Assembly: GCF_004210375.1 (NCBI RefSeq)
Contig: NC_134827.1
Coordinates: 106,873,285-106,937,284, forward strand
Length of the DNA: 64,000 bases
Direction of reading: 5' to 3'
DNA from: Tachypleus tridentatus
Taxonomy: Eukaryota; Arthropoda; Merostomata; Xiphosura; Limulidae
The stretch's first letter is position 1; the number at the start of each line of letters is the position of its first letter. Shown here piece after piece: positions 15,101 through 63,796 of this stretch. The notes under the pieces were generated by a model that saw only the letters and a list, made by a program, of their open reading frames with translations, was not told the origin of the DNA and made no database searches. A program made the translations under genes and the position numbers.

Positions 15101-18100
15101 ATACATGTTGCTACATGTTCCAACTCCACATCACACATTCTAACAATAATACATGTTGCTACATGTTCCAACTCCACATCACACTTTCTAACAATAATAC
15201 ATGTTGCTACATGTTCCAACTCCACATCACACATTCTAACAATAATACATGTTGCTACATGTTCCAACTCCACATCACACTTTCTAACAATAATACATGT
15301 TGCTACATGTACATACATGTTCCAACTCCACATCACACTTTCTAACAATAATACCTGTTGCTACATGTTCCAACTTCACATCACACATTTTAACAATAAT
15401 ACCTGTTGCTACATGTTCCAACTTCACATCAAACTTTATAACAATAATACCTGTTGCTATATGTTCCAACTCCACATCACACTTTCTAACAATAATACAT
15501 GTTGCTACATGTTCCAACTCCACATCACACTTTCTAACAATAATACATGTTGCTACATGTTCCAACTCCACATCACACTTTCTAACAATAATACATGTTG
15601 CTAAGCATGTTCCAACTCCACATCACACATTTCTAACAATAATACATGTTGCTACATGTTCCAACTCCACATCACACTTTCTAACAATAATACATGTTGC
15701 TACATGTTCCAACTCCACATCACACATTTCTAACAATAATACATGTTGCTACATGTTCCAACTCCACATCACACATTCTAACAATAATACATGTTGCTAC
15801 ATGTTCCAACTCCACATCACACATTCTAACAATAATACCTGCTGCTACATGTTCCAACTCCACATCACACTTTCTAACAATAATACCTGTTGCTACATGT
15901 TCCAACTCCACATCACATTTTATAACAATAATACATGTTGCTATATGTTCCAACTCCACATCACACTTTCTAACAATAATACATGTTGCTACATGTTCCA
16001 ACTTCACATCACACTTTATAACAATAATACCTGTTGCTACATGTTCCAACTCCACATCACACTTTCTGACAATAATACATGTTGCTACATGTTCCAACTC
16101 CACATCACACTTTCTAACAATAATACATGTTGCTACATGTTCCAACTCCACATCACACTTTCTAACAATAATACATGTTGCTACATGTTCCAACTCCACA
16201 TCACACTTTCTAACAATAATACATGTTGCTACATGTTCCAACTCCACATCACACTTTCTGACAATAATACATGTTGCTACATGTTCCAACTCCACATCAC
16301 ACTTTCTAACAATAATACATGTTGCTACATGTTCCAACTCCACATCACACTTTCTAACAATAATACATGTTGCTACATGTTCCAACTCCACATCACACTT
16401 TCTAACAATAATACATGTTGCTACATGTTCCAACTCCACATCACACTTTCTAACAATAATACATGTTGCTAGCATGTTCCAACTCCACATCACACTTTCT
16501 AACAATAATACCTGATGCTACAGGTCCCAACTCCACATCACACATTTTAACAATAATACCTGTTGCTACATGTTCCAACTCCACATCACACTTTCTAACA
16601 ATAATACCTGTTGCTACATGTTCCAACTCCACATCACACTTTCTAACAATAATACCTGTTTGCTACATGTTCCAACTCCACATCACACTTTCTAACAATA
16701 ATACCTGTTGCTACATGTTCCAACTCCACATCACACTTTCTAACAATAATACCTGTTGCTACATGTTCCAACTCCACATCACACTTTCTAACAATAATAC
16801 ATGTTGCTACATGTTCCAACTCCACATCACACTTTCTAACAATAATACATGTTGCTACAGGTCCCAACTCCACATCACACATTTTAACAATAATACCTGT
16901 TGCTACATGTTCCAACTCCACATCACACTTTCTAACAATAATACCTGTTGCTACATGTTCCAACTCCACATCACACTTTCTAACAATAATACCTGTTGCT
17001 ACATGTTCCAACTCCACATCACACTTTCTAACAATAATACCTGTTGCTGCATGTTCCAACTCCACATCACACTTTCTAACAATAATACCTGTTGCTACAT
17101 GTTCCAACTCCACATCACACTTTCTAACAGTAATACCTGTTGCTACATGTTCCAACTCCACATCACACTTTCTAACAATAATACCTGTTGCTACATGTTT
17201 CCAACTCCACATCACACTTTCTAACAATAATACCTGTTGCTACATGTTCCAACTCCATATCACACTTTCTAACAATAATACCTATTGCTGCATGTTTCAA
17301 CTCCACATCACACTTTCTAACAATAATACCTGTTGCTACATGTTCCAACTCCACATCACACTTTCTAACAATAATACCTGTTGCTACATGTTCCAACTCC
17401 ACATCACACTTTCTAACAATAATACCTGTTGCTACATGTTCCAACTCCACATCACACTTTCTAACAATAATACCTGTTGCTACATGTTCCAACTCCACAT
17501 CACACTTTCTAACAATAATACCTGTTGCTGCATGTTTCCAACTCCACATCACACTTTCTAACAATAATACCTGTTGCTGCATGTTCCAACCCATATCACA
17601 CTTTCTAACAATAATACCTGTTGCTGCATGTTTCAACTCCACATCACACTTTCTAACAATAATACCTGTTGCTACATGTTCCAACTCCATATCACACTTT
17701 CTAACAATAATACCTGTTGCTACATGTTCCAACTTCACATCACACTTTATAACAATAATACATGTTGCTACATGTTCCAACTCCACATTACACTTTATAA
17801 CAATAATACTTGTTGCTATATGTTCCAACTCCACATCACACTTTCTAACAATAATACCTGTTGCTACATGTTCCAACTCCACATCACACTTTCTAACAAT
17901 AATACCTGTTGCTACATGTTCCAACTCCACATCACACTTTCTAACAATAATACCTGTTGCTGCATGTTCCAACTCCACATCACACTTTCTAACAATAATA
18001 CCTGTTGCTACATGTTCCAACTCCACATCACACTTTCTAACAATAATACCTGTTGCTACATGTTCCAACTCCATATCACACTTTCTAACAATAATACCTA

Positions 18101-18413
18101 TTGCTGCATGTTCCAACTCCACATCACACTTTCTAACAATAATACCTGTTGCTGCATGTTTCAACTCCACATCACACTTTCTAACAATAATACCTGTTGC
18201 TACATGTTCCAACTCCACATCACACTTTCTAACAATAATACATGTTGCTACATGTTCCAACTCCACATCACACTTTCTAACAATAATACCTGTTGCTACA
18301 TGTTCCAACTCCACATCACACTTTCTAACAATAATACATGTTGCTACATGTTCCAACTCCACATCACACTTTCTAACAATAATACCTATTGCTGCATGTT
18401 TCAACTCTAAATC
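9187..18413. repeat. 48-bp satellite array, about 190 copies
   Basis: An essentially uninterrupted array with a 48-bp period. The unit contains CCAACTCCACATCACACTTT, then TAACAATAATA, then ACATGT-TGCT-ACATGT-T. Since 48 = 3 x 16, several frames stay open for hundreds of codons on both strands, for example MFQLHITLSNNNTCCY on + and EHVATCIIVRKCDVEL on -. None is credible as a gene. Frequent variants are ACATGT/ACCTGT/ACTTGT, TTTCTAAC/ATTCTAAC/TTTATAAC and CTCCAC/CTTTAC/CTGCAC. ACATGT dominates the middle, while ACCTGT dominates the first kilobase and everything after about 16.5 kb. Occasional 1-bp indels shift the frames. Confidence 0.97.
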
Positions 18414-18794
18414 ACTTAATAAACGCTAGATCTAACATTCCAGTTACTGTAAGTAATGTTTACGTTACCACGTAAGCTTTTCTTATCCGCAGTGAGGTGT
18501 GGATTTATTTTCTTGGTTTACTGTATATTTTCAAGCTAGGGTCAAGTTTTCTGCTAATATCGTACTGTATGTAACCTTACCTAGGGTTCTTTTTACCGCT
18601 GAAATCTCTGAGTGGGCAACCTCGAAAACTAACCTCTTTTAGACGACATCGGCTCTCGGGACAACGAACAGATCTCAGCTTCTTTTAAGAATTCATAGGT
18701 CAGAGGTACATCTGGATTAATTCATAGGTCAGAGGTGCATCTGGATGACATGAAACCAATGGGGAGTACAAGGTTGACTTTCGTGTCCATCGAC
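18414..18794. other. Spacer between arrays
   Basis: No gene recognised. It contains a short direct doublet, ATTCATAGGTCAGAGGT, at about 18690-18735. Confidence 0.4.
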
Positions 18795-19244: not shown

Positions 19245-20405
19245 TTGTTTCAAGTCAGACCTAAATTCAGTGAGACACTGTCTCACGTAATAAGTTATCC
19301 TTTAGTCTCTTCCAAACCAGAACTAGTCTTAATGAGAAACTAACTGGTCTAGTTATCCTTCAAGTTGTTCCAAGTCAGGCCTACTCTTAATGCGAAACTA
19401 AAGGGTTGAGTTATTCTTTAGGTTGTTCCAAGTCAGACCTAGTCTTAATGACACAACGATGAGTCGAGTTATTCTCTAAGATGTTCTAAGTCAGACCTAG
19501 TCTTAATAAGAAACTGACAGGTAGAGTTATCCTTCAGGTTGTTCCAACTCAGACCTAGTCTTAATAAGACTCTGATTGGTCGAGATTCTCTCTAGATTAT
19601 TCAAGCCAGACCTAGTCTTAATGAAACACTGATGGGTCGAGTTATTCTTTACGTTGTTCCAATTCAGACCTAGTCTTAATTACACCCTGATGGGTAGAGA
19701 TATACTTCAGGTTGTTCCAAGTCGGACCTAGTCTTAATTACACCCTAACGGGTGAAGGTATCCTTCAGGTTGTTCCAAGTCAGACCTAGTCTTAATTACA
19801 CCCTGACGGGTCAAGGTATCCTTCAGGTTGATCCAAGTCAGACCTAGTTTTAATTACACCCTGATGGGTCGAGGTATCCTTCAGGTTGTTCCAAGTCAGA
19901 CCTAGTCTTAATTACACCCTGATGGGTCGAGATATCCTTCAGGTTGTTCCAAGTCAGATTTAGTCTTAATTACACCCTGACGGGTCAAGGTATCCTTCAG
20001 GTTGTTCCAAGTCAGACCTAGTCTTAATTACACCCTGATGGTTCGAGGTATCCTTCAGGTTGTTTCAAGTCGGACCTAGTCTTAATTACACCCTGATGGT
20101 TCGAGGTATCCTTCAGGTTGTTCCAAGTCAGACCTAGTCTTAATTACACCCTGACGGGTGAAGGTATCCTTCAGGTTGTTCCAAGTCAGACCTAGTCTTA
20201 ATTACACTCTGATGGGTAGAAGTATCATTCAGGTTGTTCCAAGTCAGACCTAGTCTTAATTATACCCTGATGGGTCAAGGTATCCTTCAGGTTGTTCCAA
20301 GTCAGATTTAGTCTTAATTACACCCTGATGGTTCGAGGTATCTTTCAGGTTGTTCCAATTCAGACCTATTCTTAATTACACCCTGATGGGTCGAGGTATT
20401 CTTCT
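19245..20405. repeat. 58-bp tandem repeat, about 20 copies
   Basis: The unit consists of GTTGTTCCAAGTCAGACCTA, GTCTTAATTACACCCTGATG and GGTCGAGGTATCCTTCAG. Copies before about 19.65 kb are the most diverged, while copies from 19.7 to 20.4 kb are more alike. This fits decay at one edge and homogenisation inside. Confidence 0.93.
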
Positions 20406-20998: not shown

Positions 20999-23900
20999 TC
21001 GTTGGTTCTGAGTACAACAAATGTAGTGTGGTTTTCATATTACAAAGCCACATGTTGGTTCTGAGTACAACAAATGTAGTGTGGTTTTCATATTACAAAG
21101 CCACATGTTGGTTCTGAGTACAACAAATGTAGTGTGGTTTTCATATTACAAAGCCACATGTTGGTTCTGAGTACAACAAATGTAGTGTGGTTTTCATATT
21201 ACAAAGCCACATGTTGGTTCTGAGTACAACAAATGTAGTGTGGTTTTCATATTACAAAGCCACATGTTGGTTCTGAGTACAACAAATGTGGTGTGGTTTT
21301 CATATTACAAAGCCACATGTTGGTTCTGAGTACAACAAATGTAGTGTGGTTTTCATATTACAAAGCCACATGTTGGTTCTGAGTACAACAAATGTGGTGT
21401 GGTTTTCATATTACAAAGCCACATGTTGGTTCCTGAGTACAACAAATGTAGTGTGGTTTCATATTACAAAGCCACATGTTGGTTCCTGAGCACAACAAAT
21501 GTGGTGTGGTTTTCATATTACAAAGCCACATGTTGGTTCTGAGTACAACAAATGTGGTGTGGTTTTCATATTACAAAGCCACATGTTGGTTCTGAGTACA
21601 ACAAATGTGGTGTGGTTTTCATATTACAAAGCCACATGTTGGTTCTGAGTACAACAAATGTAGTGTGGTTTTCATATTACAAAGCCACATGTTGGTTCTG
21701 AGTACAACAAATGTAGTGTGGTTTTCATATTACAAAGCCACATGTTGGTTCCTGAGTACAACAAATGTAGTGTGGTTTTCATATTACAAAAGCCACATGT
21801 TGGTTCTGAGTACAACAAATGTAGTGTGGTTTTCATATTACAAAGCCACATGTTGGTTCCTGAGTACAACAAATGTGGTGTGGTTTTTTCATATTACAAA
21901 GCCACATGTTGGTTCTGAGTACAACAAATGTAGTGTGGTTTTCATATTACAAAGCCAGATGTTGGTTCTGAGTACAACAAATGTAGTGTGGTTTTCATAT
22001 TACAAAGCCACACGTTGGTTCTGAGTACAACAAATGTGGTGTGGTTTTCATATTACAAAGCCACATGTTGGTTCTGAGTACAACAAATGTAGTGTGGTTT
22101 TCATATTACAAAGCCACATGTTGGTTCTGAGTACAACAAATGTGGTGTGGTTTTCATATTACAAAGCCACATGTTGGTTCTGAGTACAACAAATGTAGTG
22201 TGGTTTTCATATTACAAAGTTACACGTTGGTTCTGAGTACAACAAATGTGGTGTGGTTTTCATATTACAAAGCCACACGTTGGTTCTGAGTACAACAAAT
22301 GTAGTGTGGTTTTCATATTACAAAGCCACATGTTGGTTCTGAGTACAACAAATGTGGTGTGGTTTTCATATTACAAAGCCACATGTTGGTTCTGAGTACA
22401 ACAAATGTAGTGTGGTTTTCATATTACAAAGCCACATGTTGGTTCTGAGTACAACAAATGTAGTGTGGTTTTCATATTACAAAGCCACATGTTGGTTCTG
22501 AGTACAACAAATGTAGTGTGGTTTTCATATTACAAAAGCCACATGTTGGTTCTGAGTACAACAAATGTGGTGTGGTTTTCATATTACAAAGCCACATGTT
22601 GGTTCTGAGTACAACAAATGTAGTGTGGTTTTCATATTACAAAGCCACACGTTGGTTCTGAGTACAACAAATGTAGTGTGGTTTTCATATTACAAAGCCA
22701 CATGTTGGTTCTGAGTACAACAAATGTAGTGTGGTTTTCATATTACAAAGCCACATGTTGGTTCTGAGTACAACAAATGTGGTGTGGTTTTCATATTACA
22801 AAGCCACATGTTGGTTCTGAGTACAACAAATGTAGTGTGGTTTTCATATTACAAAGCCACATGTTGGTTCTGAGTACAACAAATGTAGTGTGGTTTTCAT
22901 ATTACAAAGCCACATGTTGGTTCTGAGTACAACAAATGTAGTGTGGTTTTCATATTACAAAGCCACATGTTGGTTCTGAGTACAACAAATGTAGTGTGGT
23001 TTTCATATTACAAAGCCACATGTTGGTTCTGAGTACAACAAATGTAGTGTGGTTTTCATATTACAAAGCCACATGTTGGTTCTGAGTACAACAAATGTAG
23101 TGTGGTTTTCATATTACAAAAGCCACATGTTGGTTCTGAGTACAACAAATGTAGTGTGGTTTTCATATTACAAAGCCACATGTTGGTTCTGAGTACAACA
23201 AATGTAGTGTGGTTTTCATATTACAAAGCCACATGTTGGTTCTGAGTACAACAAATGTAGTGTGGTTTTCATATTACAAAGCCACATGTTGGTTCTGAGT
23301 ACAACAAATGTGGTGTGGTTTTCATATTACAAAGCCACATGTTGGTTCTGAGTACAACAAATGTAGTGTGGTTTTCATATTACAAAGCCACATGTTGGTT
23401 CTGAGTACAACAAATGTGTGTGGTTTTCATATTACAAAGCCACATGTTGGTTCTGAGTACAACAAATGTAGTGTGGTTTTCATATTACAAAGCCACATGT
23501 TGGTTCTGAGTACAACAAATGTGGTGTGGTTTTCATATTACAAAGCCACACGTTGGTTCTGAGTACAACAAATGTAGTGTGGTTTTCATATTACAAAGCC
23601 ACATGTTGGTTCTGAGTACAACAAATGTGGTGTGGTTTTCATATTACAAAGCCACATGTTGGTTCTGAGTACAACAAATGTAGTGTGGTTTTCATATTAC
23701 AAAGCCACATGTTGGTTCTGAGTACAACAAATGTAGTGTGGTTTTCATATTACAAAGCCACATGTTGGTTCTGAGTACAACAAATGTAGTGTGGTTTTCA
23801 TATTACAAAGCCACATGTTGGTTCTGAGTACAACAAATGTGGTGTGGTTTTCATATTACAAAGCCAACACATGTTGGTTCTGAGTACAACAAATGTAGTG

Positions 23901-24560
23901 TGGTTTTCATATTACAAAAGCCACACGTTGGTTCTGAGTACAACAAATGTAGTGTGGTTTTCATATTACAAAGCCACACGTTGGTTCTGAGTACAACAAA
24001 TGTAGTGTGGTTTCATATTACAAAGCCACACGTTGGTTCTGAGTACAACAAATGTAGTGTGGTTTTCATATTACAAAGCCACATGTTGGTTCTGAGTACA
24101 ACAAATGTAGTGTGGTTTTCATATTACAAAGCCACATGTTGGTTCTGAGTACAACAAATGTAGTGTGGTTTTCATATTACAAAGCCACATGTTGGTTCTG
24201 AGTACAACAAATGTAGTGTGGTTTTCATATTACAAAGCCACATGTTGGTTCTGAGTACAACAAATGTAGTGTGGTTTCATATTACAAAGCCACATGTTGG
24301 TTCTGAGTACAACAAATGTAGTGTGGTTTTCATATTACAAAGCCACATGTTGGTTCTGAGTACAACAAATGTAGTGTGGTTTTCATATTACAAAGCCACA
24401 TGTTGGTTCTGAGTACAACAAATGTAGTGTGGTTTTCATATTACAAAGCCACATGTTGGTTCTGAGTACAACAAATGTAGTGTGGTTTTCATATTACAAA
24501 GCCACATGTTGGTTCTGAGTACAACAAATGTAGTGTGGTTTTCATATTACAAAGCCACAT
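20999..24560. repeat. 53-bp satellite array, about 67 copies
   Basis: The period of 53 bp is visible from the start (copies begin at 21001, 21054 and so on). The unit is made of GTTGGTTCTGAGTACAACAA, ATGTAGTGTGGTTTTCATAT and TACAAAGCCACAT. Two subtypes alternate irregularly (ATGTAGTG and ATGTGGTG), plus CACAT/CACAC. Rare 1-bp indels occur. The array ends exactly where a SINE begins, and the unit's GTGTGGTTTTC...CAAAGCCACAT half resembles the reverse complement of that SINE family's tail. Confidence 0.97.
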
Positions 24561-30791: not shown

Positions 30792-36321
<5,530 letters not shown>

Positions 36322-44952: not shown

Positions 44953-45954
44953 TCAGTAGTGAGTTGCAAGACCGTCATTGTGAATAACTGCAAACATTCG
45001 CTTTGGCATGGTCGATATAAGCGTTTGCAGAAGGCTGGCTGGAATGTTATTCCAAGTGGTGAAGATGGCTTCACGAAGATCATGCACTGTTTGGAATTGA
45101 CGTTCATTTCCATAGACTTCCCTTGCCATCTACCCCTAAATATTTTCAGTGGGGTTCAGTTTGGGCGAACACGCTGAATGGTTCAAAAGAGTCACGTTAT
45201 TCACCATGAAAAAGTTCTTTGTCCTGCGGGCATTGTGGATTGCAGCGTTGTCCTGCTGAAAGATCCAGTTATTTCCGCACAAGCGAGGGCCTTCATTCAA
45301 TAAGGATGTTCTCTCCAACATGTCAATGTAGCCAGCTGCTGTTTGACACTCCTGTATAACATGAAGCTCCATTGTTCCATGGAAGGAGAAAGCACCCCAG
45401 ATCATGATTGAATCTCCTCCACTGTGTCGTGTAGAAAATATCTCCGGTGGGATATCCTTATCGTGCCAATAACGTTGGAAGCCATCTGGACCATCCAAGT
45501 TAATTTTTTCTCATCAGAGAACAAAACCTTCGTCCACTTTTCTGTGTCCCATGTTTGGTGCTTCTCAGCAAAGTTGACCCGAGTTGTTTCGTGGTGTGGA
45601 AGGAGGCGTAGCCTTTGAAGATGTTTACGGTTTTTTAAAACCTTTCTCTCGTAGATACCGTCTTATTGTTGTTGAGCTGCATTCTGCGTCCGTAAGGGCC
45701 TTAATCTGGTTCAACGATTGGCCGGTGTCTTGCCGGACAACCCGTCGAATCTTCCTGCTCAACGCCGGCGCAATTTTCTTGGGCCGACCACTTTAAATTC
45801 TCGTTCCGTATCCCTCAGGGTCTTTTAAGAAATTTGCAACAGCAGTTTTACTACACCCAATCTCACCAGCGATGGCACGTTGAGAGAGACCTTGCTTTTG
45901 CAGCTCGACAATTCTGCCACATTCAAACTCTGTCAACTTTTTAGCCTTTGCCAT
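44953..45954 (-). pseudogene. Tc1-type transposase, degenerate
   Basis: The N-terminus starts MAKAKKLTEFECGRIVELQK, followed by a helix-turn-helix (GLSQRAIAGEIGCSKTAVANF). The catalytic core shows the first Asp in LFSDEKK, the second in [10 protein letters not shown] and the Glu in SPKLNPTEN, with 34 residues between the last two (DD34E, the Tc1 spacing). Breaks seen: a stop after EGYGTRI, a frameshift after KGFK(K/N), a second frameshift near SDEKK, and two stops after NPTENI where Trp codons are expected. The remainder reads to GLATHY and a stop. Clearly non-functional, since both DNA-binding and catalytic parts are interrupted. Confidence 0.93.
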
Positions 45955-46065
45955 GTTTTTACCCAGTGTAACACAAGAGATATCAGTGGGAGATTTGACA
46001 ACGCTAATGCTTAAACACAAATAACTAAATTTCTTTGCGTGTTTACCGATTAACGCTTCGTTTCA

Positions 46066-50371: not shown

Positions 50372-50486
50372 TCAAATTGCCACTGAATTAGGGATTATCT
50401 CTGGATCGAGCCACGTGTAGGCACACTTTCGGGTCTCGTTCCGTTTTTTAATTTTTTCGCTGATGTTTTTAAGCTCTTCCACAAAC
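50372..50486 (-). CDS. Lipoxygenase last exon
   Basis: Encodes [20 protein letters not shown] to the end at NSVAI and a TGA. The terminal Ile carboxylate is a LOX iron ligand, so the exact C-terminus matters and is preserved. Acceptor TTTCAG. Confidence 0.95.
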
Positions 50487-53400
50487 CTGAAAGGAAAGAC
50501 AAAAACAGCTTTTCAAAACTATTCATATCAAACTGTTACTTATCTGTTTATATTGCTATATTTTTTATCGGACTTGATACTTTTGTCATTTCAAAACTAA
50601 AAGTTTATTTGGTTGGAGTTTCGAGAAATCTTGTAGAATGCCCTTTCAATTTTGGTATAACACGATGGATGTCAAATTACTGGGAATTTCTCTTCAGTTG
50701 TTTAAAGTTGCTTAGACAAAATGATTAGTTAAAGAAAACAAACTACAAAATGTGTCTCTCGTTGGAACAGTCCATTTCTTAATGAAATATCAGAACTTAA
50801 GTTATAGTTATAACTTTGGTCATTAACTAATTGGTTTTTATCCAAGTCAAACACTATGGTCACTGACTGATTGGTTTTATCTTATAGTTGACCTTAAGTC
50901 AAACACCATGGCCATTGACTAATTGATTTCTATCTTCTGTATGATCTTAAGTCAAACACTTTGTCATGACGTGGGTTCGACAAATGATAATAAAACTTAC
51001 ATTGAATAATGGTTAGTCATCTTTTTTTTTTTTAATGAAGGTGGTCTTAATTTTGTTTTGATTAAACATAAGTTTCGAGTTTGTTTAACCGCAACTGTTA
51101 ATTCAATATCATCTGTTAGTTGTTAACTTTGTACTTGATGGTAAAATGTTAAAAACTCATGACAAATAAATTACTGGATATTCGAAGTAATGGATACATT
51201 GGACTTGGAAATCTTATTTTTACCTTTTCCTGTTCACATGAATGAAACTGTATACAACTGGATTATTAACACTACACCTGGACGTTACCATTTGGATAGA
51301 GAGAATATATTATTGAAAAGTTGTATATGATTGACCGTTATTAAGCAATACTTTATTTTTTTTCTCTCAAAAATATATTGGGTTGGGTAGATACGACATG
51401 ACGTAACATTAATGAATGCTCTTATTATATCTACTTTGCCATACAAACGCTAGAGCTGCATGTCTAATGACTTTATTGTTTTTTTCTCTTTTATTGGAGG
51501 ATGGGACAACCAGGATTTACCAGTAGGTCTGTTGTGTTTTCAAAAATTCGTTTCCAAGCAACTTACTCTCTATGTGCCTCCACGTCGGAAGGATCAAAGA
51601 GGTATCGAACTTCAAAGTCACCCAAAGACTTGGTGGCTTTGGTGCTTAACATGCGCATAGCAAGTACTACATCAAACGTTGTCTCTTTGTTTGGCAGTTG
51701 GTCAAGAATATCTTTCTCCGTACGAGGGCGCTATAAAAAATATGAAATTATAGGTTATGTCAAGATACAATAAATTTGTACAAAACCGTCATATAGGTTT
51801 TAAATTAATGGTATTTCTGCTGTCAATTATTGAATTTCTCGTTTGGAAATATGTTTTAATAAAACTGTTATTTAAGGATTTTACCCAACAAACTCTTTAA
51901 ATACGTGCTACTAAAACGTATAATTAGAAAATATGGTCATTCAAGAATAAGTGCACGCTTTAAATAAATAAGTTACGAAACAAACTGTGTGATTAATGCG
52001 CGATAATAATAAGTACCTGAAATATGAAATAAGATGGTTAATTAGTGTTACTACACTACGAACCAAGTATAATTTTAGGAAGATATTTTATTGAACTATA
52101 TTAAATGTTAAAACAATTGTTAATAACCAAACACCAACTGTTCATTAAAAGAATAAAATATCAGTGTTTATTTGAGAAAATCGTTGAGTCGACCAAGTTC
52201 AAAATAGTAATAATAATAAAAACGTTATATAGAGGAATGTAAGTTACGGAAACATTTTGGAAATGTGAAACGAACCATAATTATTGTGACCTTTTATTGA
52301 CCTTTAATTATTTTAAGCAACAGAAAACTTATTTTCAGTTAGTGTTGGCAGCAAGTTTTACACAACAGTAGTTTAGTCTTTAACGATATGGTTTAGAGAG
52401 TGCATATTATTTGTGTGTGTGTGTGTGCTTACCTAACCACATTGTGTTGGATTTGGAGAAACATGCTGTTATCTAGTAGTGCGTGATCATCTAAAATATT
52501 TACTGTGCTTAAATGAAAAGATGGTGAACCACAAACTGGTCAATTTTGTTGTGGTTAAAATAGATCGATAATATGGATGAAAACACACATCACTTTTTTA
52601 GATTTGCTACGATGTTAATTCTGTAACATGTTAAAATTTACTACAGTGCCAATAGTGTTATATTGTTGAAGTCTGTTTATTAGCTGCCTGAGTATTGTGA
52701 TATAATAAGCGGTAAATAATGTTTAGAATATTGTGAAAAAAAATAATATAACAATTATCTCACGTTAGGATGTAAAATAGGTTTCAGCACGAGCTTGTTA
52801 ATGTGTGTACGTTTTAAAACCGACAGACATCTGCCAGTTTCTCACGCAAGTGACGTCACCCTTTCAGATAGTAAGGAACCAATGAGGGTTCACGAAGCAA
52901 ACAACTACTTTTTTATGCGTCTTATAGGTAAGTTGTATTTCGTTATTTGTTGAACGTTAGTTTATAACGGTGTTAATTAAGTGTCTACATAAGTTTTTTT
53001 TTTATTATATGTATTTATTTATTTTGAAGTTTCTTTTACGTTTTTAGCTTCATACTTGAATTCCGAAGTAATTTAAATCTCTTAAGATGGTTGTCCCCCG
53101 CCCCGTGGCTTAGCGGTGAGCTCAGGGAGGATTATAACATTAAAATTTGAGATTCGATCTCTGTCGTAGACACAATAGAGAATAAAAAGAGCCCTACGTA
53201 TAACTTCGGGCTGAATAAACAAACAACCTGACGAACATTGTAAAATGATACTAGGATTACGACTGGAACATCTACAATATTTGTTGTGTGTGGGGCGCCC
53301 TGCTAGTACAGCGGTATGTCTCCGGATTTACAACACTATAATCAGGGGTTCGATTCCCCTCGGTGGGCTCAGCAGATAGCCCAATGTGGCTTTGCTAAAA

Positions 53401-56400
53401 GAAAACCCACGTGTGGGGGGAGCACTTGATTGATAAACTGATTCATTCTGATCATTAGGTTTTCCGTAATTTTCTTCATCATAATTTTCCGTAATTTTAT
53501 CCATCGAGATACGACTTCATTTGATATCATTAAATTCCCTTTGTTAAATAATATACGTTATCTTCTGGTTTGTGTGGTGTATCTGATTTATGTAGGTAGC
53601 TTGCTTTTATCTAAATTTGTGTTAATAAAACATTGAAATCTAATATTCGTGATTTAAAAGCCGCACTAAACTGCAGATGTTTGATGATTGGAATCTTCTA
53701 TTCGGAGTTTTTAATTCTATGTGTTGATGTTTTATCTCAGATATCATTCTGAAAAAGAATACACTGGGGTGTCCAAGCATACAGATTTAGTAAACTCAGT
53801 CTTTTATTCTGAAAGCATCAATTATTTTTATGATGCCTCAAATCAACCATTGCCTTTACTGCTGACGTCATTAACATGTACACTTTCCACTGACCTCTTA
53901 AGCCTACTTACCTTGTCCCTCAAGATGACCTCTTAAGCCTACTTACCTTGTCCCTCAAGCTGATCTCTTGAGCCTACTTACCTTGTCTCTCAAGCTGATC
54001 TCTTGAGCCTACTTACCTTGTCCCTCAAGCTGATCTCTTGAGCCTACTTACCTTGTCCCTCAAGCTGATCTCTTGAGCCTACTTACCTTGTCCCTCAAGC
54101 TGATCTCTTGAGCCTACTTACCTTGTCCCTCAAGGTGACCTCTTGAGCCTACTCACCTTGTCCCTCAAGGTGACCTCGTAAGCCTACTTACCTTGTCCCT
54201 CAAGCTGACCTCGTAAGCCTACTTACCTTGTCCCTCAAGCTGACCTCGTAAGCCTACTCACCTTGTCCCTCAAGATGACTCCTCTCATGGACTGTGGATA
54301 GTTAGGGGGAAACGAACATTCGTCATATTGTTGAAAGTTCACTGCAGCATGGAAGACGGAGCAGTTTGCTATTATGGCCGTTAGGGTTTCGATAATTTCT
54401 TCTACATTAGTGAAGCCAAGTTGATGATCCCCAGGGACACCCTGGAAAACAGCAAACGGAGTTTTAACTTTTTTAAATAGATGTTGTAAGAAAAGATGAA
54501 CTGTGCATTGGCGCAACGATGTATTCAATCACTAAGCAACGAGCTTTTTTACAAACTCGTACTTAAAGTGGAATCAAGGAAAAAAAACTAAATCTTTAAA
54601 AATTATTACACCTTTTCTTAGTCACATTTTTTTTACATTAGTGTCTGTCTCTCTATCCACTTGTCTTTTATTCAACCTGGTTCATACGGGGTTCGGTTCC
54701 CTGTGGTAGACAGAGCGCATATAGCCATTGTGTAGCTTTGAGCTAATAGAACAATAGGAAAACAGTTGTCTACCTGTTTGGTTATCCGTCGGTCCGTTCG
54801 AATGTCTGTATGTTTAAGTTTTGAAAATCTAACCTAAAACTGTTGATATGATTGATTTTTTTTATAAACATAGTTATGGTAATGACGTAAAACTTTGATC
54901 ACAACACTTGTAAAGACATTGATCAGCCCCAAAATTGGTGGTGGGTGATATTGACTAGCTGTTTTTCTCTCAGGCCTATCACTTCAATATTAGAGATGGC
55001 AGGTTGGTTGTCTTTGAGTAGCTTTGCGTGAAATTAAGAAATTAAGAAACGAAACAAATAAATTCCTTTTAAATACATTTTCCTCTTTGTCAGTTTACAA
55101 TTTTAAACGCAAATACACTAACATTTTATGTAATATAATAAACTTAGAAGAAGAGCCGTTAGGATAACACAGATCAGTGGAGATCTCAATTTAGTATATG
55201 AACTTCACTGAAATGAAATACATTTAACCGTCGCCATTTTAACCTCTGTACACAGTTAATAACCTTCCAACGAGCTGATTATTCCATTCGGTGTATCAGT
55301 CGCCTGCCCGAGGGCTTATAAGGCTAAAACTCCACGTTCAATCCTTGCGGTTCTGTGCCCAATAGCACACATAATCACTAGTAAGCCAGCGAAGTTAATG
55401 AAAATCCACCACATCATCTAAGCCTTTTTTTAAACCCAAGTATTTTGAAATAAACTTTGCAGTAGTTTGGGTCTGAGGGTAATTAATTGTATTCATGTTT
55501 GGATGATTTACATGTAATATTCATAATGACTGTTTGGAGCGTCGCCTGGTGGTTAGATGCTCGACTCACGAATCGTGAGTTCGCGTCCCATCATCGAACA
55601 TACCCACACTTTTGGGGAGGGGAACTGTGCTATAATGTTACGGTCAATCCCAATATTGTATAAGAGTAGTCTGAGAGTTGGCGGTAGGTGGTGTTGGCTC
55701 GCTGCCTTCCCTCTAGTTTATTACTTCTAAGTTAGGGACGGCTAGCATTGATAGCCCTCGAGCAGCTTTTCGTGAAATTCAACAAAACAAACAACTAAGA
55801 AATATAAATCACCAAAGGCGAAGTACCATGATGTGGCAACCACCTTCCTCTCTTGGCTTCATCAGCTCCTCTCGCCAGTTCTGAAGCTCAGTATCTTCTG
55901 AGATTTGTCCATCTTTTCCTAAGAAGAAGAACATCATGTCACTGAATACGTTATCTGAACCACTAACAAGTTTTATACAACTTAGTAAACTTCTGAAAAT
56001 CGTATATGTTGGAAGTAAATGTATCTAAATTGGAAGCATCCAAAATGGCACTCTTTGTTAAAGAAATATTAAGTTTCTTTGTTGAGACAAGACTCAAGTT
56101 CTTGTTTGTGAAAACGATTCATAATACTGAACAAAATGAGTAATTACTTCCTTTTATTGTTGAGATATTAACATTGTAACAAGTATCTATCGCTGGGGAT
56201 ATTACATCTAGAAACTTCAAAGATAACGACTTCTCGAATAACTGTGGTAAACATTGGTTAAAGAATGATAGAGTATTGAATACATATGGTGAACATTGAA
56301 CAAAAGATGACGGTTTATAAAATAAACATGGTGGACATTGATCAAAGGATGAGAAACATTTATAAACACGAATGGACCTTGTTTAAACGATGATAATCAC

Positions 56401-59400
56401 TGAATAGATATGTCGAACAAATGAAGATGTAGAGTAGCTTTGATAAATAGAGGGAATTGTGATCAAAAGAAGGTTCACAAATGGAGAAATTTGGTCAAAG
56501 ATCAAGTGTAGTGAAATGACCACAAAGAATCTTCTGCAGAAAGTCAAGGTTCTCTCTTTGTAACACAGAATTTTTTTTTTTATTTAAAATGCACATCATA
56601 AAGTGCAGTGATAATGGTTGCAAAGATTTTTATCAAAGAAAGCTGTTAATATAAGGACGACATATGCCACAAATCAACAGCAATATTAATCATAGATGTC
56701 TTTATACACGCGCACAAAGCGATTCGGATAAAGTTCCGACAGAACTTACCATAATGGTGCTTGACAATTCGCGATACGTAATTGTGGATTGCTTTATAAA
56801 CGTCCACAGCGTCATCTCGATATGGGTAATATGGCAGAACTTCCGGGTCCATCACCTGAAAATAAAACAACAACAAAAAAAACGTGTGTGTGTAACTGGG
56901 AGGGATGTCTCACTACGTCACAAAGTCTGTACTGTTCTATATAACGAATAAATATCTCGTCCATATATTGCATAAGATACATAGATTCCGTTGTGCACAG
57001 ATCAAATTTGTGTGGTTTAATTCATTTTATTGACTGTAAGAACGTATGCTCACGATGGATGGGGCTGATTGAACAAGTTTTATTCGTTTTGAAAATATAA
57101 TGTTTTTAATGTTACCTGTTTGAGATTTTGTTGTACTATCATTACTGATAAGAAATCATTGCGGCAAATTATGTATTGTTACGTGTGTCGTTACTTGTCA
57201 GTGGACATTTTACACGAGGGATCGTTTTTGATACGAAGTGATCATTACAGTCAAATGACAGACACCAGAACAATCTCGCTTGTGTTCAGAGATGAAATTG
57301 TAATTTCAAAGAAACTATCATAATAAAGTCACCTTGGTAATGACAAACAGCCTAACTCAAAATAGTGACAAAATTTAAAGTAGGTATATACTAGCTTTAG
57401 ATATAATTTTAGCAGTGCAGTAGTTTATGGCCGTATTATGCGAGTTCAACGTTTAGTTTATGAGTTTAATAATAGATGTCGCTACTATAAAAATGCTTGA
57501 ATTGCAAGTGTAAAAGTAAGGCGGAGCAGTACTATCTCGGCTACTACACAGTTGGTTTAATATTCTAAAACATTTTGATTTAATATTAAAAGTAGAACAT
57601 ACTATTTAAATGTACTTATTAGTTATGCACAGCGTTTTACTTACACCACGAGATTCAATCTCACGTGGAATGTTGAGGTCCCGGTCAATTTTCCACTCTC
57701 GAAATCTAAAACAACAACAACAACTGTCAATTTAGACACACACACAGTTGTTGGCACTAAACACTTTTAAGTTTCACATTAACTAATTTTGTTACGAAGC
57801 GAACATGAATTGCAAACGTGTCACTAGCTCGTCTGTTTTTAGTATATTCTTACCACTTTGATCATGGTTCAATAACAGCTTCATGTCATTACCAAAAAAG
57901 ATGTTATTTTTGGGACGACATAGATTAAATAAAATTTTGGTTACGAGCCCTATGTGTTTCAAATTCCTAATGTTTGTTACGTGAAACCTGTGAATACCAA
58001 AAGTACTGTCAGGTGGACACCATCTTCACTGTCCAGTGTGAGAGATCAGGTTTATAGTTGAAATACACTGTAACCTTCACTGTCTAGTGTGTGAAATCGG
58101 GTTTGTAGTGAAAATACACTGTAACCTTCACTGTCTAGTGTGCGAGATCAGGTTTATAGTTGGAATATCTGTTATAGGAACTATTAATAACTTGTTCTAC
58201 TTCTGACCAAGTATTGAAGTAGTAATAGTGAACGATCCGTTTAATAACACTGGACAACAATTTTTTTGAAAAGTTTTTGCTGACTGTGACAGGTACTTGG
58301 TGGATATGCACAAATATAGTTTTGGTTTTGCTTCATCATGTAGGAACTCTGAGAAATAGACAGTTAACTGTTTACCGGCAATAACGTATTTAATTGTGTT
58401 TATGTTTCTAATACGCTATTAAGTTCAACATAATTAAAAGTGTTTTGCTCCTGATTTTCGTTTGTATTCAATGTCTGGTGCATCACGTTGCAGTGTCGAA
58501 CAGTAGTCAGCAAGCATCGACGGATTCCAGTTGTCCTGATATCGTTTTTCCATTATAGCAAAACTGAAGATTTCGATGAAACGGTACGTGATGGGCAAAT
58601 TTGGATGTGATTTTCGTGATCAGCAGCCAAAAATCTATAAGGAACACCCAGCAGTGTTCAAGAAGCAAAAGCTTTGTTGTGCAGTGTAATGAATAAAAAA
58701 ACTCTGATTACAACGCCAGGGGGCCATTTTATGATACTAGTACCTAAAGATAATGAAATAAGTTTCTCCACAATAAGTAACATTTGCTTAACAATACCAT
58801 GATCACAGGACATGTTTGTACATCCAGTTTGCTGAGAAATGGTGTCGTTTAAGTATAAGCTATAACTTAGGGTTCGATCCCTGTTCCAGACGCAGTGCAG
58901 ATAACCTGTTGTATAGAGTTATGCATAAAACAAACCAGAGGATGTCCCAGATATTTGTGTTTTATATCTAATTGTTATTTAAAACCTTTGTGATTAAACA
59001 GAATAAAGTGTGGTGCGAGAGTGGCGCCCTGTACCGATTGTGAAGGTAACTATGTTTTTGTTTATTAAATAAGGTAAATTTTGAGCTTATAACGATTATT
59101 GTTAAATACCACCAACTGAAATATTTACTTGAATAAACGAAAGAAAACCTTTTATTGTTATTCAAAATTTTTATGGGATATGGCTTTTACACCACAGGAA
59201 ATACGTACACCTTGTAATGGTTACATTTGAAAACGGAATACTGTTGGTTGCTACACAGAGTTAGGCTTAGTCGTGTGAAAGTTTAAAGTAGTGATTCAAT
59301 TTCCTTGAATTTCGTTTCTCAGCTGTGTGAGGAAAAAACAATATTTTGTTGATAGACCGAAACTGTACTCTGTGATTTACACAGTTTAGTTTTGTGTTAA

Positions 59401-62400
59401 ATACAAAACTATCACAAAAAATCGCATACAGTGTCAGAATAATAGTTAAAGGTCACATTTTCTCTTTTCTACTCGAACAAGTTTTAATAAATCGACAGTT
59501 TGAGTTCCTGCTCTGTAAAGAAGTTAAAGTTTTTGTCTTTCTATTTAACTCTAGTAGTTAAAACTTAGTGGCCACGTCTTTCTATTGTTATTTCCGAATT
59601 CCTTTATTATGTGTACAGCCTTAAGAATGTTATTTTTTATTTTTTCCAAATGTTTTTTGTTTGTTTGTGTTTCAGGTTTTCTCTTACCTGTTTCTCCCAT
59701 GACATTAACTTTGACTTGTTTCTTACGAGAAATACGAAATACTGAATTCATTACCAACTGACTTACTCGTTTGATGTACCGTTAGCTGGCTCTTTTATTT
59801 TATTTAAAAAAACGACAGGAGGCGGAGAGTAATTAGAGATACAGAACGAAAAAAACAAAAACAAGTTAAATAATCATACGTTTTTAATACTTTATACCAC
59901 TGTTTTTCTGGTTTTTTTTTCTTTGAAAACTTTGAGTGAGCCGTATGAAATTATTTTATTAATTTTAAGTATGCTGACTAAAATTCATCGTGGTGGTGTT
60001 TAGTAATAAAATTTTTTGTGTTGTTTTTTTGCGTGTGATGTAGTTATTTGGTTTGGCCATAAAAGCTGTGAAAAGCACGTAAGTCGGAAGTAACAGTATA
60101 GACTCGAAATAAAAAAGTTTTAATTCAGTGACGAACCACCAGTGCTCGACTTTGGTATTAGATACACAGAGTGATAGGGAAGCTGGCTTTTCATCTTTAT
60201 TTATAAATTCGGCCGTTACCATGAACTTTTCAAATCTTATGAGTGTTTTCTGTCTGTTTTTCATTTGTAACAGTAGTTGTTTTGATTGTCATTAATATCG
60301 CAAGAACTTGTGGAATGCATTCTTTTGTGTGGCAATCCTGAATGGAGTTAGTGACAGGTCACAGGATAGTGTTGTTCGTGTGGAAGACCTGTGGTGGAAG
60401 ACCTTTGAATAAGAACTTGTGGCTCTGCTGTGACACTCCTGAGTGGAGTACCTATGAATTGTGGTTCTCCTGTGACACTTTTCTGTGGAATACCATGAAT
60501 AATAGCACTGATGCTTCTGTGACATTGTCAAGATATCAGTCACACGAAATTCGAACAGTTTGAAGGGCAGAACTTAAAGGTGTTTGTATTAATCACCACG
60601 AAGGAAAAAGCGCATTACATATCTTAAAGGCATCCAGGTTTTCCAATAATGTGCCTGTAATCTTGGTATATCTATTGATGAATATTTTCAAACTTTTTAT
60701 TTCAGGGGAAACGCATACGAAACACTACGTTCCGTTTGTTTGAATCTTAAAACAGTCATATGAATACTGCTACGTTTGAGTTTGGAATTTTGTATCATCA
60801 CGAAGGATTGTTTCCTTGTATATGTTCCCAACCAATGATATCGAAAGTGTTAGCACTTATAATGGCTTGAATCCTACCAGAGCACAAAAGTACGATGTTA
60901 TGTAACATTAGTGGACAAAACGGATCTGGTTCTGAGATTGTATTAAGTCTCAAAACTTTGTGTTTAGTAAAGTAGATGCTTCCGATGGTTGAAACAGCGG
61001 TATCGTTAGATTTTATGTTTCCCTCTACCGTTGTTACACCATGACACATTAGCTCAGATCTTAGTCATTAGAGAGTTAAGTGTCTGTTGAGCTCTAGTGT
61101 TTATTTCTAAGTGTTGAGCTCTAGTGTTTATTTCTAAATGTTTATAGGAAAAACTAATGCCCAACTCTGGGGTAAACGAATTTATTAAACGTTGTGGTGA
61201 AAAAAAATGTAAAATGTCTTTTTTTATAACTTTTAACAACTTTTCATAAACTGAAAAAAAAAGTTTTATCTTCTTTCATAGTTTTTTTTTTTTTTGTAGC
61301 CAAGTACAGAGCTACGCAATGGGCTATCTGTGCTGTGCCCACTACGATTATTGAAACCTATTTTCTAGAGTTTTAAGTCCGCAGATTTACAGCTATGCCT
61401 TGGGGGGATGATGAGGGGTTATTCAGTGGTTCAGCTCCACCTGCAATTATGCTTCCAGCATCGCTACCCAGAAGGTTAAGTCACGGACTAATAAAACATG
61501 TCTAGTCTCGATATTTTTACATTATGTACATAAAAATAAACCCCGTACTGGATTATTCGCTTTCATTTATAGAATTAGAATTAAGCGTATTACGTTTCTC
61601 TTTTCTGGCTTTATGTATTGAGGCACATTAATTAAACGAACGCTATACAACTAGCAATATTAATCCCTCAAACTTTATGGCGTAGTTTAATAAACTAAGG
61701 CTAGTTTCTTCCAAGGTTCTTTAGTTTAGACTATTTTAAGGAAGTTCTTAAGTTCAAACAGCATAACTCCAAGCTACCAGGAAACCAAACTGCACACAGA
61801 ACAATATTGAGTAGATGCTTACCCTCTGGCGATCAAAGAACAAAGCCCTCGCATGCCAATAGTCATCACTCTGTCCACCCACCCTCCCATCGCCATGAAT
61901 TTTTCCATGATCATTCTAAAAAAAAAATAAAAAATGAAACTTCAGTCATTACATCTTATATTCATTAAAGTTTCTCATTTATATTGTAAGAAACCAATAA
62001 TGTATTTAAAATATTTACAAGTCTTGTATGTGCGTTACCTTTACAAATAGATACCTCCTGTTACTTATATTATTTTGCTTTCTATCTCAAAATTTAAAAT
62101 TCTGTATATTTCTAACAATTGTCATACTTACCAATAATGTGATAAAGTGGTTCTATAATTACTGTATTACATTGAGATAATATTGAACATATTCACAGCA
62201 CTCACCAGTTTTTATTTTATAAACAAATAGTAAGAATTATGTGTTCCACCAAAACTAGCGGAAATAATCTTTGTTAAAACATTTTCGGTTGTTGCTGAAA
62301 CGTGAATACCTTTAGAAATAAACTATTGTGGATACTCGGTACCAGTTTAAAACAAACAGTTAAAACAAATATTGTGGTTACTTGGAAACGAATCGTTTAG

Positions 62401-63796
62401 TAGTTTAAAAAACCACTCACGAGTTGACAGCTAAGAGGAAGTAGAAGTGAGGTGCTAGGAGCTTGAATAGTGGATGTGAGGGTGAAAGGTTCCTGTTTGT
62501 ACAGACCCAGACACTTTCCATCATCAGGTGAGTTCGACCTACAGATGGAGAGACAACTTACTGCTTTAAAATCTTATCTTTATCAGAGCGGCTGTATAAA
62601 GTTATCTGAAACTCATGTGCGAGATTTCTCTCACCAGGAGAACACTGTGTAATTAATGTAATAAATCTGGATTATATTTAACGAACAGTGTAGAATGACG
62701 TAACGTAAGATGGTGGGGTTTTAACAGGATTATGTTCTACAAAGATGCCAGCAGATAATTAATATAGAACAGCCGTAAGTGATCTTATGTTAGTGCCAGT
62801 TACAATCATTAACATGGTTGCTTTAAAAGTATTTAATATAAATGTGTTTACATTCTTTCCTTGAAGATTTAATTAAAAAAACGGCTGCAGCTAATTTAAC
62901 ACAAAGACTTTATCCAGAACATTGCTGTACTTACCATTTCAGTCATAAAATTACCTCTATTTTTACTTCCGTATTTAATCAGGAAGTTACTCCACCTGAG
63001 TTTCTTTACTAACATTTTAAATAGCTGTTTCTCTTGGATAAGTACTACTTTATACCACTTTTGTATTGTGGGCTTGGCTGAAGCCGTCTTGGATTTTATT
63101 ACCTCAAATTGAACATACAATTTTGTTTTTGAATTTCGCGCAAAGCTACTCGAGAGCTATCTGCGCTAGCCGTCCCTAATTTTGAAGTGTAACAATAGAG
63201 GGAAGGTAACTAGTCATCACCACCCACCGCCAACTCTTGGGCTACTCTTTTACCAACGAATAGTGGGATTGATCGTAACTTATGACGCCCCCACGGCTGA
63301 AGATGCGAACCCGCGACCCTCAGATTACGAGTCGCACGCCTTAACCCACCTGGCCTTGCCGGGCTGAACACACAAATTTTGACTGTATTTGAGATATAAA
63401 AGTCATTATTTTTAAAATGTTAAGAGCTAAAGATTTTATTTTTAATTACTACGACAACAACATTGTCAACAACATTGTAAAACAATAAGTACCACGGTGG
63501 GACAACGATAAATATTCAAATTCACAACGCTGAAATCAGGGGTTATATTCCCATCAGTAGACATAGGAGAAAGCAAGCACTGGCTGCTGGTTTATTAATC
63601 TGTATATTGATGAGGTAACAGCAACATACTTCAAAATGTCTAATTCTAACACATTTATTTATATTCTTGTTAATACTGAAGAATGTTAATTTTTCTTACC
63701 AATAGCGAGACAAGCTCTATGGTATGTTGCATCAGCGTTGTTGAAAAACATTTTAGCCAACATCCATGTGTAAGGTGGATCAGTGGGGAAAAACAC
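50372..63796 (-). CDS. Lipoxygenase-family gene, 3' part (5' end off window)
   Basis: Animal-type lipoxygenase (LOX), a non-heme iron fatty-acid dioxygenase fold. Nine exons in reading order: 63700-63796, 62421-62538, 61823-61915, 57645-57705, 56750-56855, 55827-55918, 54262-54441, 51567-51730 and 50372-50486. Every junction is in phase, giving 341 residues and a stop, equivalent to about the last half of human 5-LOX. Landmarks are [74 protein letters not shown] and the C-terminal PNSVAI. The ligands corresponding to 5-LOX H372, H550, N554 and the terminal Ile are kept, but the H367 position is Ala (GCT, 63704-63706). The frame is undamaged, so this is either a non-catalytic paralogue or an unusual enzyme. 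The N-terminal PLAT domain and promoter lie past 64000. Confidence 0.95.
51567..51730 (-). CDS. Lipoxygenase penultimate exon
   Basis: Starts [20 protein letters not shown], then [19 protein letters not shown], and ends at HRE across the junction. Matches the LOX segment between the NPP region and the C-terminal helix. Acceptor TTATAG, donor GTAAGT. The overlapping plus-strand ORFs are shadows. Confidence 0.93.
51731..53097. other. Lipoxygenase intron, first stretch
   Basis: No exon found. A CRE palindrome TGACGTCA (52851-52858), a CCAAT box (52879-52883) and a GTAAGT donor-like site (52928) occur together on the plus strand, which is promoter-like but has no recognisable gene attached. Confidence 0.4.
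53098..53225 (+). mobile_element. Third short SINE family copy
   Basis: CCCCGTGGCTTAGCGGTGAG head, TATAACATTAAAATTTGAG, box-B-like GATTCGATCTC, then GTAGACACAATAGAG. Relative of the copy at 4.37 kb. Confidence 0.6.
53291..53412 (+). mobile_element. Short SINE, intact relative of the satellite-linked copy
   Basis: Box A region (TAGTACAGCGGTATGTC), loop with TTTACAA, box B (GGGGTTCGATTCCCC) and the tail AATGTGGCTTTGCTAAAAGA then AAACCCAC. This tail is what the 53-bp satellite resembles. Confidence 0.85.
53891..54275. repeat. 35-bp minisatellite duplicating a splice donor
   Basis: Exactly eleven 35-bp copies (385 bp, no indels). Read on the minus strand each contains CTTGAGGGACAAG (GAGACAAG in one copy), the last bases of a lipoxygenase exon, followed by GTAAGTAGG or GTGAGTAGG, a consensus 5' splice site. 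The last copy overlaps the real exon end at 54262. Reading past the first donor hits TGA within nine codons. Confidence 0.95.
54262..54441 (-). CDS. Lipoxygenase exon with His/Asn iron ligands
   Basis: Sixty codons, [16 protein letters not shown] to [10 protein letters not shown]. It holds the HAAVN motif, with His at 54349-54351 and Asn at 54337-54339 (5-LOX H550 and N554), then [13 protein letters not shown]. Acceptor TTTCCAG. The donor GTGAGT at 54256-54261 is the first of the duplicated series. Confidence 0.95.
54676..54750 (+). mobile_element. SINE relic
   Basis: Box-B-like GGGTTCGGTTCCC and the module GTAGACAGAGCGCATATAGC with CATTGTGTAGCTTTG mark a short-family SINE relic. Confidence 0.5.
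54936..55050 (+). mobile_element. SINE core/tail fragment
   Basis: GGTGGTGGGTGATATTGACT to GTAGCTTTGCGTGAAATTAA: the core and tail of the main family without a head. Confidence 0.7.
55305..55385 (+). mobile_element. SINE relic
   Basis: GCCCGAGGGCTTATAAGGCT, box-B-like CGTTCAATCCTTGCGG and a short module. Degenerate short-family copy, low certainty. Confidence 0.4.
55540..55798 (+). mobile_element. SINE, plus strand, diverged head
   Basis: A head beginning GGAGCGTCGCCTGGTGG and a box-B-like GAGTTCGCGTCCC, followed by the main core and tail. The overlap with a lipoxygenase intron is antisense to that gene, ending about 30 bp from an exon donor. Confidence 0.8.
55827..55918 (-). CDS. Lipoxygenase exon (ELQNW)
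   Basis: [20 protein letters not shown], then [10 protein letters not shown]. Corresponds to the EDPELQ segment of 5-LOX. Acceptor CTTCTTAG. The donor GTACTT is weak compared with the others in this gene. Confidence 0.92.
55919..56749. other. Lipoxygenase intron
   Basis: AT-rich with loosely repeated ...GAACATTG(A/G)...AAA(G)GATGA... phrases at about 56240-56400. No coding segment recognised. Confidence 0.4.
56750..56855 (-). CDS. Lipoxygenase exon (PYYPYRDDA)
   Basis: [20 protein letters not shown], then [15 protein letters not shown]. Strong match to the LPYYFYRDDGLLVWEAI helix of animal LOX. Acceptor TTTTCAG, donor GTAAGT. Confidence 0.95.
57645..57705 (-). CDS. Lipoxygenase short exon
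   Basis: Twenty codons, [20 protein letters not shown], matching the LOX stretch just before the PYY helix. Acceptor GTTTTAG, donor GTAAGT. Too short to appear as an ORF, but required by phase on both sides. Confidence 0.9.
57706..58018. other. Lipoxygenase intron, start
   Basis: AT-rich with a (CAA)n and (AC)n patch directly at the acceptor of the short exon. Nothing else recognised. Confidence 0.4.
58019..58165. repeat. Short tandem repeat, about 51 bp, 2-3 copies
   Basis: Copies of AACCTTCACTGTC(T/C)AGTGT followed by GAGATC(A/G)GGTTTATAGT, in the intron. Confidence 0.75.
58840..58935 (+). mobile_element. SINE relic
   Basis: GGTGTCGTTTAAGTATAAGC, box-B-like GGGTTCGATCCC and GACGCAGTGCAGATAACC with a degenerate tail. 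Diverged short-family copy. Confidence 0.5.
58936..61284. other. Long lipoxygenase intron, no exon found
   Basis: No LOX segment is missing between the flanking exons, so this is intronic. Short ORFs on both strands are unsupported. Imperfect 50-odd-bp repeats (CTGTGACACTCCTGAGTGGA and variants) lie at about 60330-60520, and a doublet TTGAGCTCTAGTGTTTATTT at 61086-61135. Confidence 0.45.
61285..61405 (-). mobile_element. Val-like SINE, minus strand
   Basis: A T-run on +, then the tail-module AGAGCTACGCAATGGGCTAT, TGCTGTGCCCACTACG, a weak box B and the head (CCGCAGATTTACAGC on +). Confidence 0.7.
61823..61915 (-). CDS. Lipoxygenase exon (GGWVDRV)
   Basis: [20 protein letters not shown], then [11 protein letters not shown]. 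Corresponds to the GG(x)VD segment of LOX. The position where many LOX have Arg in INxxAR reads Met here. Acceptor TTTTTTAG, donor GTAAGC. Confidence 0.92.
62421..62538 (-). CDS. Lipoxygenase exon (RTHL)
   Basis: [20 protein letters not shown], then [19 protein letters not shown]. The His of RTHL (62528-62530) equals 5-LOX H372. Acceptor TCTGTAG, donor GTGAGT. The plus-strand ORF over it is a shadow. Confidence 0.95.
63118..63366 (-). mobile_element. SINE in lipoxygenase intron
   Basis: Main-family copy in the same orientation as the gene. A deletion near the CAAACATGCTCGCC junction removes part of it, while the head and tail are intact. Confidence 0.87.
63490..63580 (+). mobile_element. Possible SINE relic
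   Basis: CACAACGCTGAAATCAGGGG, TTATATTCCCATCAGTAGAC and a short tail resemble a degenerate short-family copy. Low certainty. Confidence 0.35.
63700..63796 (-). CDS. Lipoxygenase exon with the missing iron ligand
   Basis: [20 protein letters not shown], then [13 protein letters not shown]. It aligns without gaps to the 5-LOX stretch ending ...HQTITHLLRTH across the next exon. The residue at the H367 position is Ala (GCT). The nearby His of TYHR corresponds to the non-ligand His five residues earlier. Acceptor TTTCTAG, donor GTAAGA. Upstream exons lie beyond the window. Confidence 0.94.

Follow-up and report, generated by a model that had tools for sequence, protein, structure and literature searches.

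A horseshoe-crab lipoxygenase homologue with an incomplete iron site

The window analysed here, a stretch of 64,000 nucleotides of the horseshoe crab Tachypleus tridentatus (C3:106873285-106937284), carries on its minus strand a lipoxygenase (LOX) gene, represented by its 3' part, in which alanine stands at the position of the first iron-ligand histidine. Nine exons lie within the window, from 63796 to 50372, with AG/GT at all intron borders and in-phase joins, and together they give 341 codons ending in the C-terminus IPNSVAI and a stop. This model matches the lipoxygenase profile PF00305 with an E-value of 1.3e-46 and 159.8 bits, against a curated cut-off of 23.6. Four further exons, also with AG/GT borders and in phase, lie upstream and 0.9-3.9 kb outside the window (67875-64885 in window-extended numbering), and their addition gives a model of 492 residues, still of the 3' part of the gene, which scores 196.1 bits (E 1.4e-57). 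The frame is open across all 13 exons of this copy, with no damage to frame or splice sites; a sequence-only reading of the stretch had already described the frame and splice sites seen there as intact.

The features that define the iron site are spread over exons A, B, G and I. Exon A (63700..63796, on the minus strand like all the others) was placed by its AG/GT borders, its phases (0 in, 1 out) and its alignment to lipoxygenase chains; it encodes residues 1-32 and the first base of codon 33, and contains the motif YHRACLAI. Within it, His26 (CAT, 63719..63721) falls at the position of H362 of 5-LOX, which is conserved without being a ligand, and Ala31 (GCT, 63704..63706) falls at that of the first ligand, H367. 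Exon B (62421..62538; GRTHLMMES...LLAVNS) supplies His36 (62528-62530), the counterpart of the second ligand, H372. Exon C (61823..61915) has Met75 (61906-61908) at the Arg position of the INxxAR segment, and is followed by exons D (57645..57705), E (56750..56855; YPYRDDA...) and F (55827..55918). The C-terminal cluster HAAVN lies in exon G (54262..54441), with His220 (54349-54351) and Asn224 (54337-54339) corresponding to H550 and N554, and exon H (51567..51730) then leads to exon I (50372..50486), which ends in the terminal Ile (50375-50377).

The end of exon A, YHRACLAI plus the first base of a Gly codon, joins the start of exon B at RTHL, and across this helix phmmer aligned the product without gaps to five coral AOS-LOX chains, placing Ala31 on the first His of HxxxxH. 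The same gapless pairing was obtained with the 15-LOX chains 5mef, 5med and 5mee and with the 12S-type chains 3rde and 3d3l; the first three are cyanobacterial. For the 5-LOX chain 3o8y the correspondence was taken from matched stretches of equal length (query 1-79, chain 355-433) rather than from the residue alignment itself, and gives an offset whereby residue n of the window gene is residue n+336 of 5-LOX in this region. Residue names in PMC9181373 and PMC3480706 agree with this offset, and the former counts His-367, His-372 and His-550 among the iron ligands. The claim of the sequence-only reading that Ala (GCT) occupies the H367 position is thus borne out by the gapless alignments and the fitting numbering, and so, from RTHL, HAAVN and NSVAI, is its claim of retained counterparts to H372, H550, N554 and the terminal Ile. 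His26 and Gln227 have likewise been retained, and no new His appears in the metal helix (residues 20-42) that could fill the ligand position, which was one of the findings by which the substitution might have been explained away. The change from either CAT or CAC to GCT takes at least two base changes, and both flanking residues have changed as well, so that THL of the helix has become LAI. A compensated frameshift was considered as the source of this change and rejected as weak: in the shifted register, 11 of 295 and 20 of 547 positions attain the identity seen at the site, counts that include the site itself and in which the best shift was chosen beforehand. Checked for the features of a PF00305 lipoxygenase, the product lacks the first iron-ligand His and has the H372 equivalent, the HxxxN cluster and the C-terminal Ile/Val carboxylate; we therefore call it a lipoxygenase homologue with an incomplete iron site, its fold and profile being those of a lipoxygenase and its ligand set failing one defining feature.

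A PF00305 search of the 2.17-Gb assembly found nine gene copies, which we count as five loci. On C3 these are the window gene, with an inverted copy at 107.41 Mb, and another pair at 108.1 and 108.4 Mb; C6 and C10 each carry a pair, and C2 has one copy. Exons of coagulogen (PF02035), the clotting protein of horseshoe crabs, are matched in this assembly at 1.5e-25 and in 18 further places but in 0 of 14 control genomes, which makes a horseshoe crab very probable. Five is a lower bound, because 30 candidates were scored in the genome search. Partner copies are 95-99.5% identical in the stretches compared, and most copy pairs are probably two haplotypes, both of which the assembly may hold in places; the two C10 copies, which are 48 kb apart, may instead have arisen by tandem duplication. 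Alignment of the paralogues of this species had been suggested as a check, and every one of the other seven copies of exon A, from four paralogous loci, reads YHQSCTHLG with the His kept, exon B starting with FTHL. Models of nine exons were made for three of the paralogues and a model of exons A-C for the fourth, on C10. The A-B junction lies at the same place in all four, and exon sizes in the window gene are those of the three full models except for exon G (180 here and 177 there) and, in one model, exon H (155 against 164). All five ligands are kept in these three; in the C10 gene both helix His are retained, as are the His and Asn of exon G, which was read on its own. Between the window gene and the paralogues, 51-55% of aligned codons specify the same residue.

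Two surveys of prokaryotic genomes extended this comparison. The first, of GTDB genomes, used patterns on WM[LM]AK or HAAVNF and yielded 41 prokaryotic lipoxygenase loci, of which 38 cover the site, all with His; as these patterns targeted WM[LM]AK/HAAVNF and not the first His, the counts for His220 and Asn224 are biased by the search and that for the first His is not directly biased. For the second, bacterial genomes from two phyla (195 and 386) were searched with a profile, and 57 and 56 of them gave matches; the best 30 matches of each search were read (one match of one search being passed over in the ranking), and His is present in 60/60, a count that leans to well-matching lipoxygenases since only the best-scoring 30 per search became loci. 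With the coral sequence and three paralogues, the first ligand His is found in 102/102 lipoxygenases that cover the site. This set is mostly of well-matching bacterial sequences, with relatedness and overlap between the two surveys left in, and its animal sequences from outside the genome are PDB chains only. Among positions covered by at least 90 sequences, 12 are invariant, and the window gene changes one of these, the first ligand His; when the threshold is lowered to 95% conservation, it departs at 4 columns and the three paralogues at 2, 3 and 4. The sequence-only reading had also remarked on the loss of the Arg of INxxAR. The loss is literally correct (Met75) but not special to this gene: the three modelled paralogues have Leu there (AINARGL, AINGREL), so the missing Arg adds no weight, and the position is Arg in 4/38 of the covering first-survey loci and 48/60 of the second.

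A second assembled copy of the gene lies inverted at C3:107412524 on the plus strand, some 476 kb from the window gene (L050-L053, G000:C3:107392001-107432000). Its alignment with the window covers 21,015 bases at 99.47% identity and contains 37 mismatches and 55 insertions or deletions (indels); this copy is probably the other haplotype. Its exon A is identical, Ala included, and the only two coding single-nucleotide differences between the copies are synonymous.

In a tree of 19 rows, for which 14 of the 36 aligned bacterial rows were hand-picked (5 of the 41 first-survey loci gave no single stop-free hit at 1e-20 spanning more than 300 residues and were omitted from the alignment, and the C10 gene, modelled for exons A-C only, was left out of both tree and invariance counts), the window gene branches outside the three placed paralogues. 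Tip distances from their shared fork are 0.54 for the window gene and 0.46, 0.50 and 0.44 for the paralogues, so that the protein has not run away and, on what is a rough comparison, has not changed clearly faster than its relatives (0.54 against 0.44-0.50). A concentration of changes in the active site was also looked for. In a first set of 36 bacterial loci, coral and three paralogues, 4 of 8 conserved pocket or ligand columns were changed (H31A, L32I, I70V and L78F) against 0 of 30 others (p 0.00095), with a site list assembled after the sequence had been seen; in the larger set the signal failed (p 0.33 at full invariance, 0.13 at 95%) and it was given up, and among the second-survey loci residue 32 is Ala in 30/60, residue 70 is Asn in 14/60 and Phe is present at 78 in 5/60.

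An intact model of 13 exons that has lost a catalytic residue kept by its homologues is the sequence signature of a pseudoenzyme, and by a modest measure we incline to the view that the window gene is a maintained paralogue without standard lipoxygenase chemistry, kept as a pseudoenzyme. The product has kept a lipoxygenase fold together with four of its five iron ligands, and with the loss of the first ligand His (H367A in 5-LOX terms) standard dioxygenation, the usual making of hydroperoxides, would most likely be lost, a metal perhaps being weakly held. From the sequence we infer loss of activity, retention by selection and a cellular role, which might be, for example, that of a fatty-acid- or membrane-binding protein, a scavenger or a regulatory partner of the ligand-complete paralogues. 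The earlier suggestion of a maintained rather than a decaying gene agrees with the open 13 exons, the exon sizes, the 11 of 12 invariant positions retained, the branch length and the four ligands. Its further suggestion, of a pseudoenzyme or an enzyme with altered metal coordination, is one whose two halves the sequence does not separate. Retention of the terminal Ile, His36, His220 and Asn224 suggests either a metal site that was of importance along most of the branch or a late loss of the first His. In PMC6612559 both iron-ligand clusters are called essential for true ALOX sequences, and a bacterial lipoxygenase with an iron load of only 5.6% is described; low iron alone need not therefore mean inactivity. 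A literature search, by title and start of abstract and with subscription journals little covered, returned no paper on a lipoxygenase without a ligand His.

Several observations weigh against a maintained pseudoenzyme. The second copy has three small coding indels, two in the upstream exon e4 and one, of two bases, in exon G, and these detract from the case for maintenance; they could be real, in which case the copy may be a broken allele or a duplicate in decay. Assembly error is their simplest reading, because three are observed in 1479 coding bases where 3.9 would be expected at the rate of the aligned block. The rate comparison is rough because the tree is rooted on one long coral branch, the paralogue fork has support of 94/85, and the tree program flagged the residue make-up of the window gene as unlike that of the rest. 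The estimate of the ratio of nonsynonymous to synonymous change that had been proposed as a check was computed against the paralogues and is uninformative, since synonymous divergence is saturated for every pair that includes the window gene. Finally, the four kept ligands suggest a metal site that is still of importance, and a pure scaffold would have no use for one.

This last point leads to the strongest alternative, which we regard as possible but doubtful: that the two remaining His and the terminal carboxylate, with Asn, hold a metal at which Ala leaves an open site, and that the protein performs some other chemistry, such as that of a hydroperoxide isomerase or a peroxidase. The retention of His36, His220, Asn224, the terminal Ile and Gln227 over 0.54 changes per column would be unexpected if the metal were mostly unbound, and at residue 157, where 29 of 37 aligned sequences have Tyr, the window gene has a His that might lie near the metal. 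Against this, the metal helix has gained no His, and kept ligands prove nothing if the loss of the first was recent. Mutagenesis of the ligand histidines of lipoxygenases gives iron-poor, inactive proteins, though none of the papers listed in our literature search was on this matter. A particular form of altered coordination can be drawn by analogy with the Fe/2-oxoglutarate halogenases, which differ from the hydroxylases in having Ala or Gly where these have the carboxylate ligand: the change from His to Ala might have turned the iron site into one of a 2-His-1-carboxylate type, with an exogenous ligand taken up at the open position and a new reaction with fatty acids or fatty-acid hydroperoxides as substrates, a combination that we consider improbable.

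Early decay, in which the His was lost recently and the remainder is not yet broken, is in our view unlikely. The three coding indels of the second copy would fit it, as would a 35-bp minisatellite of 11 copies (53890..54279, minus strand) that covers the final 18 bases of exon G together with the donor site, and so repeats that donor: ten units are donor-like, including the true donor, and the frame stays open only with the first, any later one leading to a stop after eight codons. However, the window copy is open over 13 exons, the His change required at least two substitutions and was accompanied by changes on both sides, and of the 55 indels that separate the two copies, 44 fall within homopolymers of at least four bases, the error pattern of long reads, with coding indels at about the rate of the whole aligned block. 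The same homopolymer noise is what speaks for an error at the codon itself, which is highly improbable given that the change is a substitution and not an indel, lies at least two changes from either His codon, and is shared by both assembled copies. An alternative exon or splice form that restores the His, conceivable in that the site is only two codons from an exon junction, is just as improbable, as intron A-B holds nothing LOX-like that could replace exon A at the junction, exon A matches once only in the 54 kb around the gene, and the junction is equally placed in four paralogues; the one HxxxxH found in the three sense frames of this intron was rejected, having no lipoxygenase context and a stop shortly upstream.

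Should the gene indeed be a maintained animal lipoxygenase homologue without the first iron His, it would offer a natural experiment on the ligands that a lipoxygenase can do without; in eicosanoid biology it would also be an unusual instance of a pseudoenzyme or of a metal site put to new use. The lipoxygenases of horseshoe crabs may be a little-studied lineage; among the papers listed in a literature search, judged by title and start of abstract and with subscription journals little covered, none was on them.

The remainder of the window has further minisatellites, two of them very long. One of 48 bp in 192 copies occupies 9194-18415 (9.2 kb) and is open in several frames, the other very long one has 53-bp units in 67 copies (21001-24560), and the rest consist of 33-bp units in 18 copies (3230-3820) and 58-bp units in 19 copies (19296-20404). 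In the C10 paralogue, the sequence of exon D is seemingly repeated in 39-base steps (VSEIIPNGFEARK and kin; L070, G000:C10:15319611-15319865), and minisatellites seeded near exon junctions may therefore recur. Fragments of a Tc1-type transposon lie on the minus strand at 45139-46062, with matches to HTH_38, HTH_Tnp_Tc3_2 and DDE_3 that are each slightly below the Pfam cut-off, and an acidic open frame of 153 residues on the plus strand (34917-35378) has no Pfam match. Scans for Rfam families and tRNAs gave no hits in the window.

Among known systems, a possible bacterial parallel was found in the Myxococcota, many genomes of which have a diverged LOX-like gene some 2 kb from a true lipoxygenase gene and divergently oriented, with weak matches to profile positions of about 293-416. 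In the six that were read (L136-L141), HAWAN is kept, the H362 equivalent is missing and the terminal Ile is present in 5/5 with the end covered. These partners are diverged and possibly non-standard in function; they are nevertheless no precedent for the window gene, because both helix His are present in each of the six (NHLGQCH or NHLAQCH). Human 5-LOX (3o8y) was matched over query residues 1-341 at 6.2e-46, and the mammalian 12S-type lipoxygenases (3rde, 3d3l) align with the window gene without gaps across the helix; from both of these the window gene differs in having Ala at the first helix ligand and Met at the equivalent of Arg411. The best solved relative is the lipoxygenase domain of coral AOS-LOX (3fg1, 2fnq, 3dy5), aligned from residue 8 to the terminal Ile with an E-value of 1.5e-55, which has His at the first ligand where the window gene has Ala. 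The same genome has four other lipoxygenase loci (C2, C3, C6 and C10), of which the three with nine-exon models share the exon plan of the window gene; all four have HQSCTHLG joined to FTHL, with the His, and a C-terminal cluster of H(A/S)(A/S)AN, in contrast to the HAAVN of the window gene.

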